Shown here: in pieces, positions 43,979 to 49,245 of the stretch
Layout of the letters: every line of letters starts with the position of its first letter
Position numbering within the stretch: position 1 is the first letter of the stretch
From: Thermococcus sp. P6
Lineage (GTDB): Archaea > Methanobacteriota_B > Thermococci > Thermococcales > Thermococcaceae
NCBI RefSeq assembly: GCF_002214525.1
Contig: NZ_CP015104.1
Coordinates: 806,001-870,000, forward strand
Reading direction: 5' to 3'
Length of the DNA stretch: 64,000 nucleotides
The notes under the pieces: generated by a model
What the model saw: only the letters and a program-made list of their open reading frames with translations
What the model was told of the DNA's origin: nothing
Database searches by the model: none
Program-made: the position numbers and the translations under genes

Positions 43979-44242
43979 TCAACCACCACTCACCGGCGGA
44001 AAGAGGGCCACCACGTCGCCCTCCTTCAAGACCTCGTCGAAGGAAGCGTACCTGCCGTTCCGCGAGACGTTCACATCGGCCAGATCATCCTCGCCAAAGA
44101 CCTCCTCCCTCAACGCTGGATGTCTCTCCTTCAGCCTTTCCACCAGCTCCCGGACGGTCGTCCCATCTGGAACCTCGAGCTCTTCCTCACCCGTGCCGGT
44201 AAGGGAACGGAAACGGGCAAAGTAACGGACGCGGATCTTCAC
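43979..44242 (-). CDS. moaD: MoaD/ubiquitin-like sulfur carrier
   Basis: 87 residues with a beta-grasp fold ending VALFPPVSGG; the terminal Gly-Gly is the site of adenylation and thiocarboxylation. It donates sulfur to MoaE. The GTG at 44242 (MKIRVRYFARFRSLTG) is preceded by GGTGGTT; further in-frame GTG codons upstream to 44266 lack a site. It is coupled to the downstream E1-like gene. Confidence 0.9.
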   Translation of the reverse strand: MKIRVRYFARFRSLTGTGEEELEVPDGTTVRELVERLKERHPALREEVFGEDDLADVNVSRNGRYASFDEVLKEGDVVALFPPVSGG

Positions 44243-44340
44243 ACCAACCACCACCCCGGAGTTCACCCAGGGATTAAAAAGGATTATCGGACGGGGGACA
44301 AAGGTTAAATCTTCCTCCTCCTACCACCTGCGGTGCCGGG

Positions 44341-44359
44341 GATGAAGGTCGATCTGAAT
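44341..44359 (+). repeat. 19-bp direct repeat, copy 1 (vestigial pxpA start)
   Basis: GATGAAGGTCGATCTGAAT is identical to 46280-46298, where it forms the start codon region of pxpA (MKVDLN). Here it also has its own TATA-like AAGGTTAAATC near 44300 and GGTG before the ATG, but the frame stops after 12 codons. It looks like the original pxpA start left behind when the symporter cassette was inserted. Confidence 0.85.
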
Positions 44360-44444
44360 AAAAAAACGCCTCTAAGCTCATAAACTAAAGCGAGAACTTC
44401 AACATTTGCTTCACCCCAGCTCCCCGGAGATTATGGGGGACGAA

Positions 44445-44458
44445 ACCTTTATATGGAC
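44445..44458 (+). promoter_or_regulatory. Promoter of the symporter cassette
   Basis: AAACCTTTATATGG is a clear TATA box about 35 bases before the small membrane gene, and GAGGTG provides its ribosome binding site. This gives the cassette its own promoter. Confidence 0.5.
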
Positions 44459-44489
44459 AAATGACAATCTCTCCAAGAGGTGTTCCAGA

Positions 44490-44693
44490 ATGCCTCGCTT
44501 TATAAATGACAAAAACCTGGCAATTCTAACAGTAGTTCTATGGATATTCCCCTTTGCAGTGTATCTCTTCAACACACCAGAGCCGTCAGTTCTCCACATG
44601 AGCAAGCCCTTTGCTTATTCAGTGATATGGTGGATAATAGCCCTATCCCTCTTTACAGTATGGGCTTACTACGATCTCAGGGGTGGTGAATAA
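44490..44693 (+). CDS. Small membrane protein of DUF3311 type, symporter partner
   Basis: 67 residues with two hydrophobic helices separated by a short loop (LAILTVVLWIFPFAVYLF and SVIWWIIALSLFTVWAYYDL). Small proteins of this type commonly precede sodium:solute symporter genes. Its TAA stop overlaps the first base of the symporter ATG. AGGTG precedes the ATG at 44490. Codons are more A/T-rich than in flanking genes. Confidence 0.75.
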   Translation: MPRFINDKNLAILTVVLWIFPFAVYLFNTPEPSVLHMSKPFAYSVIWWIIALSLFTVWAYYDLRGGE

Positions 44694-46237
44694 TGGAAGC
44701 TTGGCAGATCGCCACCACAATCATCTTCTTCTACAGCTTGCTCGTGATAGGCATCGGAGTCTGGGCAGGGAAAATCATGAAGAAGTCTATGGAAGACTTT
44801 TACATTCTTGGCAGGAGAGGGAGTACAATCGTGACATTTCTCGCAACTGCCGCAACCTACCACAGCGCCTTTGCCTTCCTGACGAGCGTGGCGGTTTTTT
44901 CAACGGCAGGAGTTACTTTTTGGATAGCCGCATCTGCCTGGACAGTGCTAGCGGGAATATTCATGTACCTGGTCGGACCAAGGATATGGAAGATAGGAAA
45001 AGCAAGGGGGCACATGACACCCGCCGATATGCTGAGCGACTTTTATGATAGCAAAGCCCTCGGAGTGATAACCGCAACCGTCATGGCGCTTTTCATAATT
45101 GCATACATAGTAGTCCAGGCCGTTGGCCTTGGAATAATCCTCGATGTTGCAAGCCAGGGACATGTTCCCTACCAATGGGCATCACTGGTCCTTATACTCG
45201 TTGCAGCTACCTACCTGTTCCTCGGAGGACTCAGGGCAGCCTACTGGACAGACGTCCTTCAGGGGGTTTGGATGTACCTCGGAATCTTTGTGGCGGCCTT
45301 TGTGATAGTTGGCAAAATTGTACCCGGGGGCTTCACGGCCCTAATGGATTCCGTTAGGGCGGTCAATCCAAAACTTTTAACAATGAACTGGACATCCCAA
45401 AAGATGCTCGGTGCAATCCTCATATACGGCCCCGGTCTCATGCTCCTCCAGCAACTCTGGATTAAGTATTACATAGCCAAAGACGAAAAAATCCTAAAGA
45501 CCTCCGCCGTTGGTACTGCGATTTACCTGAGCACCTACTACATTGCAGCAGCGTTGATAGGACTTTCGGCCGCTGTTGCCAACGTTAAAGGGATTCCGGG
45601 AGTCCTCAGTCCGGGATTCATATCAGCACTTAAAGCCCAATACGGAAGTGCAGACGCCGTTGCGGCGGTGATGATATACAAGCTCCTCAATCCAGTTCTG
45701 GCCGGATTCCTGCTTGCCGGGGCCGCAGCGGCAGCAATGTCAACCCTCGATTCGTTCCTGGGTTCAACTTCCATGATTCTGGTCAGAGATATCTATCAAA
45801 AGCACATCAAACCGGGAGCGAGCGAAGGCCATTACGTACTGGTCAGCAGGGCATTCATGATAATCTGGGCCCTTATAGGATGGTACTTTGCCCTTTTAAA
45901 GCCCGGCTTAATATTCAACATAGCCTCGATAGCCTGTGCCGGTGGACTGCAATTCCTGCCGCTTCTCCTTCCAGCAATCGTCCCAACCACAAAGAGGTAC
46001 ATAAACAGAAACGGTGCCATATGGGGATTGATAGTTGGAAGCTTCCTTGCAGCGTTCCTCTCACCGCAGATTGGAGGAAAGCTCGGCCTTCCAGTGCTTG
46101 AACACCCGGCGGTAGCGGGACTGGTGGCGGTGATAGTTAACACCATAGTCGCACTCCTGATTTCAGCAATCACAAAGGCAAGCGAAAGGGAGCTCAAGGT
46201 TATGGAAGAATACAAGGAAGTTCTTACGAAAGCTTAA
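44693..46237 (+). CDS. Sodium:solute symporter family transporter, candidate 5-oxoproline importer
   Basis: 514 residues with about 13 helices, SSS family ([74 protein letters not shown]). It co-transports a small solute with Na+. It sits directly upstream of pxpABC, which hydrolyse 5-oxoproline to glutamate, so pyroglutamate is the simplest guess for its substrate. The sequence is richer in A/T codons than its neighbours, a sign of acquisition from elsewhere. GGTGGTGA precedes the ATG. Confidence 0.85.
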
Positions 46238-46238
46238 A

Positions 46239-46272
46239 TTTTTATTTTACCAATTACTAATTTTTACAGAGG
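46239..46272 (+). terminator. T-rich terminator after the symporter
   Basis: TTTTTATTTTACC follows the stop codon, with another T-run at 46260-46265. Termination here would separate the cassette from pxpA; readthrough would give one transcript. Confidence 0.4.
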
Positions 46273-46279
46273 GTGATCT

Positions 46280-46298
46280 GATGAAGGTCGATCTGAAT
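46280..46298 (+). repeat. 19-bp direct repeat, copy 2 (start of pxpA)
   Basis: Identical to 44341-44359. It holds the ATG and first six codons of the intact pxpA gene. The flanking bases on both sides differ between the two copies, so the repeat ends are sharp. Confidence 0.85.
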
Positions 46299-47048
46299 TC
46301 CGATCTGGGTGAAAGCTTCGGAAGGTACAGGCTCGGCATGGATGAAGAAGTCATGAGGTACGTAACCTCGGCGAACGTTGCCTGTGGCTGGCACGCCGGG
46401 GATCCGCTGGTGATGAGGAGAACCGTAAGGCTCGCAAGGGAGATGAAGGTTGAAGTCGGGGCCCATCCCGGCTACCCCGATCTTCTCGGCTTCGGGAGGA
46501 GGTACATGGACCTAACGCGGGAGGAGGCGAGGAACTACGTTCTCTACCAGATAGGCGCCCTTTACGCCTTCGCAAAAGCCGAAGGTTTGACCCTGCAGCA
46601 CGTTAAACCCCATGGGGCCCTTTACAACGCCCTTGCAAAGGATGAAGAGCTCGCGAGGGGCGTTCTTGAAGGAATAGCGGACTTCGAGAGGAAACTCATT
46701 TTCGTCGGGCTCTCAAACTCGAAACCCCTCGAGATAGCGGAGGAAATGGGATTGAGTGTTGCCCACGAGGTTTTTGCCGACAGGGCCTACAACCCCGACG
46801 GAACCCTCGTCTCAAGGCGCCTGAAGGGGGCGGTTATTCATGACAAAGAGGCCATAGCGGAAAGGGTGATCTCAATGGTTAAAGACGGGGGCGTTAAAGC
46901 CATCAACGGCGAGTGGGTGGATCTAAAAGCGGACACCGTCTGCGTCCACGGTGACAATCCAAAGGCCCTCGAGATAACTGCCCACGTAAGAAAACGCCTT
47001 GAGGAGGAAGGGGTGAAGGTTCTGCCCATGAAGGACTTCATACGGTGA
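46281..47048 (+). CDS. pxpA: 5-oxoprolinase subunit A (LamB/YcsF family)
   Basis: 255 residues. With PxpB and PxpC it forms the ATP-dependent 5-oxoprolinase that opens pyroglutamate to glutamate. Family motifs: [69 protein letters not shown] and [16 protein letters not shown] lies four bases before the ATG. Four bases separate it from pxpB. Confidence 0.95.
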
Positions 47049-47052
47049 TCCC

Positions 47053-47748
47053 ATGTTCCCCCTTTTCAAGCCGGCCGGGGATTCCGCGCTCGCGGTTATC
47101 TTCGGCGATGAAATAGACGAGGGGATAAACGAAAAGGTGCATGCCGTGGCCAGGGCAATGGAAAAGGCATCCCCGGAATGGCTGATCGAGGTAGTTCCCA
47201 CCTACACGAGCCTCTACATCTACTACGATCCTTTGAGAATCTCCTATTCGGAAGTTGCCGGGGCTGTGGGACCTTTCCTGGGGACAAAGCCTGAGAAGGG
47301 TAAGAGAAGGGTTGTGAAGATTCCAGTAGCTTACGGCGGCGACTTCGGGCCGGATATAGGGTTCGTTGCGGAATACAACGGTCTAAGCGTCGATGAAGTT
47401 ATTGAGATCCACTCGAAGCCCCTCTACAGGGTTTACATGCTCGGCTTCCTTCCGGGTTTTGCATACCTCGGGGGGATGGACGAGAGGATAGCCACACCAA
47501 GGCTGGAGAAACCGCGCTTAAAGGTTCCAGCAGGAAGCGTGGGGATAGCCGGGAAACAGACGGGATGGTACGCAATAGAGAGCCCCGGAGGGTGGAGGCT
47601 GATAGGAAGAACACCCCTGAAAACCTTCGACCCCCTGAAAACCCCGCCGAGCATCGTAACCCCCGGGGATTACGTTAAGTTCGTTCCCATAGGCGAAGAG
47701 GAATTCCGGGAGATCTATGAAGGGAACCGGGGGAAGGAGGATGATTGA
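47053..47748 (+). CDS. pxpB: 5-oxoprolinase subunit B (KipI-like)
   Basis: 231 residues, allophanate-hydrolase-subunit-1/KipI family. GDSALAVIFGDEID at the N terminus, VYMLGFLPGFAYLGGMD, RLKVPAGSVGIAGKQTGWYAIESPGGWRLIGRTP. Its end overlaps the start of pxpC by 8 bases, so the two products are probably made together. Confidence 0.94.
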   Translation: MFPLFKPAGDSALAVIFGDEIDEGINEKVHAVARAMEKASPEWLIEVVPTYTSLYIYYDPLRISYSEVAGAVGPFLGTKPEKGKRRVVKIPVAYGGDFGPDIGFVAEYNGLSVDEVIEIHSKPLYRVYMLGFLPGFAYLGGMDERIATPRLEKPRLKVPAGSVGIAGKQTGWYAIESPGGWRLIGRTPLKTFDPLKTPPSIVTPGDYVKFVPIGEEEFREIYEGNRGKEDD

Positions 47749-48736
47749 ACTCCTGAGCGTTCCATCCCTAACGACCGTTCAGGATTCCGGAAGGAGGGGC
47801 TATCAGAGGTTCGGGGTCCCCGTGGGAGGGGTGATGGACGAGGTAAGCGCGAGGCTGGCGAATTACCTGGTCGGAAACGACGATAAAGCCCCCCTGCTGG
47901 AGTTTGCTTTAAAGGGACCCACGCTGAGGTTCAACGCCTCGGCCGTCTTTGCTGTTGGTGGGGATGCTGAGGTAAGGCTGAACGGAGTTGAAATAAGCCC
48001 CTGGAGGAGTTACTGGGCAAAGAGGGGGGACGTTCTGGAGATAGGCATCTTAAAAAGCGGTTTTTATGGATACGTAGCTTTCGCCGGGGGAATAAAATGC
48101 GAGCCGATCCTCGGCAGCTGCTCCACCTATCTAAGGGCAAATTTTGGAAAGGCCCTGAAGGCCGGGGAGGGGCTGAAACTCGGGTATGCTATTCTCACGG
48201 GCAAAGCGGGAAAAGAACTCCCGGAGGAGTTCATACCTGTCTATGCGGAGGAGAGTGAGATAAGGGTCATTCCGGGCCCTCAGGAGGACCACTTTACCAA
48301 GAAGGGTATTGAAACCTTCCTGAATTCGACCTACGAGGTAACCCCCGAATCCGACAGGATGGGGTACCGTCTTGAGGGGCCCGAGATAGAGCACTCGGAA
48401 AAGGGAGCGGAGGTAATCACCGATGCCGTCCCTCCGGGAGCGGTTCAGGTCCCGAAGAACGGTAAACCAATAATAATGCTCGCCGACGGGCAGACGACCG
48501 GGGGCTATCCAAAGATCGGGGTTGTTGCGAGGGTTGATATACCAAAGGTTGCCCAGACGAGACCCGGCGGGAGGCTCAGGTTTAAAGCTGTAAGCGTGGA
48601 GGAAGCTCAAGAGAGATTGAGGAAGCGGGAAAAGATCATGGAGGCCATAAAGGGGTTTATCCGAGGTGAAATGAAGGCCTACAGGCTGAAGGTTGGGGAG
48701 CGGGTGGTGGCCTTTACAAAGGTGGAGAAGAGGTAA
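47741..48736 (+). CDS. pxpC: 5-oxoprolinase subunit C (KipA-like)
   Basis: 331 residues, allophanate-hydrolase-subunit-2/KipA family. SVPSLTTVQDSGRRGYQRFGVPVGGVMDE, YVAFAGGI, VIPGPQEDHF, SDRMGYRLEGP and IIMLADGQTTGGYPKIG are characteristic. The ATG at 47741 follows GGAAGGAGG. It completes the pxpABC operon. Confidence 0.94.
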   Translation: MIELLSVPSLTTVQDSGRRGYQRFGVPVGGVMDEVSARLANYLVGNDDKAPLLEFALKGPTLRFNASAVFAVGGDAEVRLNGVEISPWRSYWAKRGDVLEIGILKSGFYGYVAFAGGIKCEPILGSCSTYLRANFGKALKAGEGLKLGYAILTGKAGKELPEEFIPVYAEESEIRVIPGPQEDHFTKKGIETFLNSTYEVTPESDRMGYRLEGPEIEHSEKGAEVITDAVPPGAVQVPKNGKPIIMLADGQTTGGYPKIGVVARVDIPKVAQTRPGGRLRFKAVSVEEAQERLRKREKIMEAIKGFIRGEMKAYRLKVGERVVAFTKVEKR

Positions 48737-48738
48737 GC

Positions 48739-49245
48739 TCACCACGGCACGCTCTTCCATCCCATCCTGTAGGCGAGGTAGTTCGCCCCCCAGTGGACGA
48801 AGGGGGTCACCACGAGCAGGAAGAGGATCCCACCGCTGGGGAGGGTCTTAACCGGATAGGCAAAGACCATGGCGCTTATTACAAAGCCCAGCTGGTCGAG
48901 GCCCAAGGCGGGGGCACCCCGGGGCAGGTTCACACGCCTCTTGATAAAGCTCCCGATGAGGTCGCCCACAAGGGCACCGAGGGAGAGCAGGAAGGCGAGA
49001 AGGAGAGCTACCTTCAGGGTGCCGTAATAATCGGGAGTGATAACGTACTGAACCGCTCCGGTAAGGGTGCCCAGCGCGATCCCTCCGAAGAACCCCCTCC
49101 ACGTCTTTCCATCACCAAGGAGTCTCCTGCCGTCCCGCCAGTTTCTGCCGCCGTCCATGGGTTCTCCACCGCCGACGAGAACCGGGGATGCGTTGGCAAC
49201 GTAAGCCGGAAGGATGTACCATAGAGCCCACAGCACCGATGACAC
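48739..49245 (-). CDS. carS: CDP-archaeol synthase
   Basis: 168 residues with four or five helices. CarS transfers CMP from CTP to 2,3-bis-geranylgeranyl-glycerol phosphate, a committed step of archaeal phospholipid synthesis. YVANASPVLVGGGEPMDGGR, LLGDGKTWRGFFGG, LGALVGDLIGSFIKRRV and LDQLGFV fit the family. The gene runs opposite to pxpC and just misses overlapping it. Confidence 0.94.
   Translation of the reverse strand: MSSVLWALWYILPAYVANASPVLVGGGEPMDGGRNWRDGRRLLGDGKTWRGFFGGIALGTLTGAVQYVITPDYYGTLKVALLLAFLLSLGALVGDLIGSFIKRRVNLPRGAPALGLDQLGFVISAMVFAYPVKTLPSGGILFLLVVTPFVHWGANYLAYRMGWKSVPW

Follow-up and report, generated by a model that had tools for sequence, protein, structure and literature searches.

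An apparently foreign pxpABC operon with a symporter cassette in Thermococcus sp. P6, marked by a 19-bp copy of the pxpA start

Thermococcus sp. P6 is a hyperthermophilic archaeon belonging to the Thermococcales. In a 64,000-nucleotide (nt) stretch of its genome (contig NZ_CP015104.1, positions 806,001 to 870,000; hereafter the window), pxpA, encoding subunit A of 5-oxoprolinase, is preceded by a small gene and a symporter gene of the SSS (sodium:solute symporter) family, and this cassette is flanked by two copies of a 19-bp sequence, the second of which is the pxpA start. A preliminary description of the locus had proposed that about 1.9 kb of foreign DNA entered a resident pxpA. Comparison with related genomes shows that the apparently foreign block is about 4.44 kb long, and not 1.9 kb, comprising a pxpA-type leader, the first repeat copy (copy 1), the small gene, the symporter gene, and pxpABC in the gap between a moaD-like and a carS-like gene. 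The same comparison shows that pxpABC itself is foreign here, from another genus, the g13 lineage. The likeliest reading of copy 1 is as the former pxpA start, cut after six codons. The history that we hold to be the probable one, if by no great measure, has two steps, namely capture of a g13-type pxpABC at moaD-carS and a later, one-sided homologous integration of the cassette with an illegitimate join on its left.

Extent of the block and origin of pxpABC

In four relatives of the host genus g1 (L091, L093, L096, and L097), moaD lies ~60 bp from the carS-like gene, providing an empty site for comparison. Homology between the window and this empty site ended at GGACGG (44294) and restarted at ~48737, at the carS stop, which yields the block length of ~4.44 kb. 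The preliminary description had suggested searching for an empty moaD-pxpA site with a single repeat copy; no sampled relative has a moaD-pxpA interval, moaD abutting carS instead, and empty sites were found at pxpA itself, in close relatives of two cassette-carrying lineages (L114 and L112). Adjacency of moeB and pxpA was likewise absent from the other genomes in which both genes were located, as judged from coordinates compared by eye.

The usual site of pxpABC in genomes of g1, g13, g14, and g15 is between nob1 and a DUF473-like gene. In the P6 genome, nob1 adjoins the DUF473-like gene (L085, 5980-6130) and pxpABC is gone from there, the vacated site retaining a promoter-like CTTTTTTAGTTTTCCGT that resembles the nob1/pxpA promoter gap of relatives. 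The window PxpA matched NF003814 at 413.9 bits (cut-off 226) and the pxpA-pxpB-pxpC order is intact, which identified the operon as a PxpABC 5-oxoprolinase. Its PxpA was 83-88% identical to those of g13, g14, g15, one g11 genome, and two odd g1 metagenome-assembled genomes (MAGs), and 75-82% identical to those of most g1 and g12 genomes. In a tree of concatenated PxpABC the window was sister to genus g13 (support 0.978), whereas nob1, the DUF473-like gene, and egsA placed the genome within g1 (support 0.947). Because pxpABC groups with g13 and the flanks of the vacated site group with g1, pxpABC itself is foreign; as it is also new at moaD-carS, a 1.9-kb insertion into a resident pxpA is not supported. 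What stands of the earlier proposal is that the small gene and symporter form an acquired cassette between a pxpA-like promoter and start and pxpA, absent from other sampled g1 genomes; that only ~1.9 kb is foreign, and that pxpA is resident, does not.

A symporter ancestral at the locus and lost in the relatives, with the repeat as a selected regulatory or leader-peptide copy, is highly improbable. Copy 1 does encode a short open reading frame (ORF) with a ribosome site, as that account would have it; however, the symporter (search at E 1e-60) and the moaD-pxpA neighborhood are both lacking from all other sampled g1 genomes, and the pxpABC site of the genus is nob1-duf473.

In two g1 MAGs, G030 (L086) and G016 (L087), pxpABC fell on the g14 side of the tree, reflecting either contamination or further transfer.

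The 19-bp repeat and the truncated pxpA start

The sequence GATGAAGGTCGATCTGAAT occurs as two exact copies 1939 bp apart, with 1920 bp between them (Table 1). These two copies were the only sites found in the 64-kb window with up to three mismatches (mean of shuffles, 0.02) and in the whole genome of 1.52 Mb with up to two. The 18-mer of the repeat that starts at the ATG had no match in 93 other Thermococcales genomes, and the pxpA starts of the relatives' loci that were compared differed from it at 2-7 of 18 positions. Since the 18-mer is unique to this genome, and a chance second copy of a given 19-mer is expected in it at only ~1e-5, copy 1 derives from the lineage's own pxpA. Copy 1 begins at the start codon and opens a 13-amino acid (aa) ORF, MKVDLNKKTPLSS, which stops 12 codons after the start; 5' of it lie a TATA-like AAAGGTTAAATC and a GCGGTG ribosome site (GGTG). 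The preliminary description was accurate on the position and exactness of the repeat, on the signals before its first copy, and on the stop after 12 codons, and the possibility that it had raised of a general motif occurring elsewhere was not borne out. A match of 12 of 13 bases between the sequence 3' of copy 1 and the 3' end of pxpA (46987-46999) was out of frame and A-rich and was dismissed as chance.

The leader before copy 1 has a TATA-to-ATG spacing like that of g13 pxpA leaders. Its best match among the 20 leaders compared was the leader of G062, a weak match reached in 1 of 2000 shuffles; of 56 window gene leaders, 12 scored as well when compared with the pxpA leaders of g13/g14 and 18 when compared with those of g1.

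An exact direct repeat flanking a cassette is also what a mobile element or integrase would leave on inserting 1920 bp with a 19-bp target-site duplication, an explanation that we consider very unlikely. No transposase or integrase frame was evident in 44360-46279, in agreement with the earlier account, and terminal inverted repeats were likewise absent, the inverted repeats between the copies not pairing the two ends of the insert. In addition, the right end matches the donor symporter-pxpA spacer and ribosome site, and other carriers of the cassette (G108 and G111) have no 19-bp-type duplication at it.

The symporter cassette and its relatives

The symporter matched the SSF profile (PF00474) at 126.4 bits, against a curated cut-off of 22.8 and over profile positions 1-406 of 406, which places it in the family. 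It fell below all reported NCBIfam cut-offs (PutP, PanF, MctP, and ActP; 109 vs 515.5 bits for PutP and 102 vs 328 for PanF) and was distantly similar to solved sodium/glucose cotransporters (4e-10). The small protein had no Pfam match at 0.001, the best match at a loose threshold being MatE (E 0.079), which leaves its earlier designation as DUF3311-type unproven. The terminator formerly placed after the symporter was not recovered, as a stem-loop scan of the symporter-pxpA gap found T-rich runs only; the sigma-70 promoter and stem-loop terminator scans, which are of types not suited to archaea, returned nothing relevant. A search for RNA families gave no matches, and comparisons of 44360-44489 for its origin gave self-matches and chance-level matches only.

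Table 1. Features of the apparently foreign block and its neighbors, in window positions
Feature	Position	Strand	Remarks
moaD-like gene (ThiS family), left neighbor of the block	43979..44266	-	Pfam ThiS 1.6e-22
pxpA-type promoter/leader, putative left end of the block	44295..44340	+	TATA-like AAAGGTTAAATC and GCGGTG, before copy 1
Copy 1 of 19-bp repeat, probable truncated pxpA start	44341..44359	+	13-aa ORF MKVDLNKKTPLSS
Symporter cassette between the repeats, 1920 bp	44360..46279	+	own TATA-like box ACCTTTATATGG near 44446-44457
Gene for 67-aa hydrophobic small protein	44490..44693	+	conserved symporter partner; orthologues 78-83% identical in L082-L084
SSS-family sodium:solute symporter, 514 aa	44693..46237	+	Pfam SSF 1.8e-36
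Copy 2 of 19-bp repeat, start of intact pxpA	46280..46298	+	
pxpA, 5-oxoprolinase subunit A	46281..47048	+	NCBIfam NF003814 2e-124
pxpB	47053..47748	+	homologous to, and colinear with, pxpB of relatives including L035
pxpC, putative right end of the block	47741..48736	+	
Gene that we take to be carS-like, right neighbor of the block	48739..49245	-	77-80% identical in L091, L093, L096, L097

Symporter orthologues 86-88% identical to that of the window were found directly upstream of pxpA in G108 (g13) and in G111 and G114 (g14), members of sister genera that are AT-richer than the host genus, and a search of the collection also returned the symporter in L035, which is the G114 contig, and in L034. 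The preliminary description had suggested looking for the cassette in other surroundings, and it was present with different flanks in G108, G111, G114/L035, and L034. Its place in G108 and G111/G114 is the nob1-pxpA interval, which in G111/G114 also contains an Lrp-like regulator. The window and L035 shared the symporter-pxpA order and the spacer in one continuous alignment of 4.1 kb at 72.6%. Because carriers share this order and a similar spacer, the right end of the cassette can be homologous and no mystery element is needed.

The left joint was more variable. Against a cassette-free relative it fell ~22 nt before the pxpA ATG in G108 (compared with L114) and ~19 nt before it in G111 (compared with L112), with the pxpA promoter kept in both, and in the window it falls 18 nt after the ATG; no homology was found at the left joint. 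In all three lineages (the window, G108, and G111/G114), the cassette thus sits between the pxpA promoter and start. What these loci have in common, a right side that runs seamlessly into pxpA and a left joint whose position near the start varies, fits integration through homology at one end and an illegitimate join at the other. In the pxpA of G108, 17 of 23 private nucleotide sites fall within the first 380 bp, compared with 12 of 37 in four sisters, a skew suggestive of an imported tract in the 5' part of the gene.

On L034, a contig labelled Thermoplasmata archaeon B1_G16 (a MAG), a symporter 79% identical to that of the window stands head-to-head with a pxpA 70% identical, through either mis-binning or transfer. 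G030, G110, G113, and G088 (L086, L107, L109, and L140) have another SSS symporter (~28% identical) in divergent orientation to pxpA, and coordinates suggest the same for G002.

Composition, timing, and proposed history

G+C at fourfold-degenerate sites was 0.535 in the symporter gene and 0.65-0.70 in pxpABC, compared with a window mean of 0.72 (standard deviation 0.08) over the 42 long ORFs of the window, a mechanically compiled set in which a few frames are spurious. The symporter therefore does use more A/T-rich codons, as first noted. In G108, G111, and L035 the corresponding values were 0.19-0.23 for the symporter and 0.25-0.38 for pxpABC. The idea that low G+C proves a recent entry of the symporter was rejected because of the similar margin between the symporter and pxpB/pxpC in these three carriers; since the offset is alike there, composition does not show a later arrival of the symporter, and the AT-richness earlier taken as a sign of foreign insertion is a weak one.

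The symporter and pxpABC of the window have both shifted toward host G+C to a like extent, as would fit their entry into moaD-carS as a single unit with the small gene, copy 1 then arising during repair, when the pxpA start of the block itself was duplicated locally or copied through template switching. This account, the chief alternative, is rather unlikely but by no means negligible. It agrees with the colinearity of symporter and pxpABC as one block in the donor genera, and it would easily explain the identity of copies 1 and 2, which share a single allele seen in this genome only. However, it leaves unexplained why copy 1 starts at the start codon, with a promoter-like box and GGTG in the 46 bp before it, and why in G108 and G111 the pxp promoter has been kept in front of the cassette.

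By the two-step history, a g13-type pxpABC operon with its own promoter would have been captured at moaD-carS, and a later fragment carrying small gene, symporter, and pxpA would have recombined with it. Pairing on the pxpA side may have been homologous, and the crossover may have come to a halt at the start codon, beyond which the leaders are unlike and homology ceases; the other end of the fragment would have been attached to the resident pxpA, six codons in, by an illegitimate join. The resulting operon would consist of promoter, 6-codon stub, symporter, and intact pxpABC. A left joint 3' of the start codon would duplicate the intervening codons, and joints 5' of it would not; if the crossover did end up at the start codon, the two copies would be expected to be identical.

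Several observations weigh against the two-step history. The leader at 44295-44340 is not clearly homologous to any single relative's leader, and the presumed block boundaries were inferred from relatives only about 80% alike. Both copies being the same allele, unique to this genome, the history in its simple form needs a crossover at the edge of homology or a later conversion. Of the private sites of G108, 11 sit in one 60-bp cluster (pxpA nt 301-360; L082 8837-8896). The composition shifts of symporter and pxpABC relative to the other carriers are alike, a hint that the two have resided here for similar lengths of time. A neutral 19-bp copy would stay identical with P 0.05 at ~0.16 substitutions per site and P 0.005 at 0.3, so that a cassette as old as pxpABC here should not have left the non-coding 19-mer identical. 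As identical copies become rare beyond ~0.16 substitutions per site, and the window pxpABC branch measured 0.177 amino-acid changes per site in the concatenated tree, the duplication looks young relative to that branch. The hints on timing thus conflict, the identical repeat pointing to a young duplication and composition to similar residence of symporter and pxpABC. The 60-bp cluster in G108 also resembles a conversion patch inside an otherwise near-identical pxpA.

More tentatively, the pxpA start could be a place where uptake genes are captured repeatedly in Thermococcaceae. On this view, an orthologous cassette would have entered three lineages by pxpA-anchored homology and an unrelated SSS symporter (~28%) would have been recruited head-to-head elsewhere, giving two independent archaeal 5-oxoproline importers. 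Judging by eye, a VapC-like PIN-domain frame of ~130 aa lies in the ~600-bp pxpA-pxpB gap of L112, L125, L128, and L132, indicating that the pxp operon accepts other insertions too, and a transposase-like frame lies between pxpA and pxpB of G100 (L105).

Implications and comparison with known systems

Gene transfer into an operon is a kind of process already known; the 19-letter scar is unusual. The locus can be viewed as a readable scar of an operon gaining a transporter without losing its promoter or first gene, and it lends support to a way of joining DNA, through homology at one end and end joining at the opposite one, that is seldom caught in archaea. It also carries a caution, as a local repeat and AT-rich codons can mimic a small insertion where a whole operon was replaced and moved.

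PxpABC turns 5-oxoproline into glutamate. The symporter most likely imports 5-oxoproline for PxpABC, a prediction from gene context alone, namely its linkage to pxpA, and it is a concrete candidate for an archaeal 5-oxoproline importer. In the pxpTABC operon of Corynebacterium glutamicum and the ycsG-pxpA region of Bacillus subtilis, the transporters PxpT and YcsG are needed for 5-oxoproline use (PMC13274462). The P6 locus resembles both in linking a secondary transporter gene to pxpABC; unlike PxpT and YcsG, which belong to the NRAMP family of the APC superfamily, its transporter is of the SSS family and its function is predicted. It is like SSS proteins in its full-length Pfam SSF match, and unlike the assigned subfamilies in falling below the NCBIfam cut-offs and in its pairing with a small gene outside known families. 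In xenologous gene displacement, a foreign orthologous operon replaces the resident one. A foreign pxpABC would similarly have replaced the resident copy here, but at another locus and with an added transporter.

Homology-facilitated illegitimate recombination (HFIR), with one homologous and one illegitimate junction, has been described for naturally competent bacteria and Escherichia coli conjugation (PMC3240628). The P6 locus would share with it one seamless and one arbitrary junction, and would differ from HFIR as described there by occurring in an archaeon, by its tiny duplication, and by being an event read from a genome scar alone.
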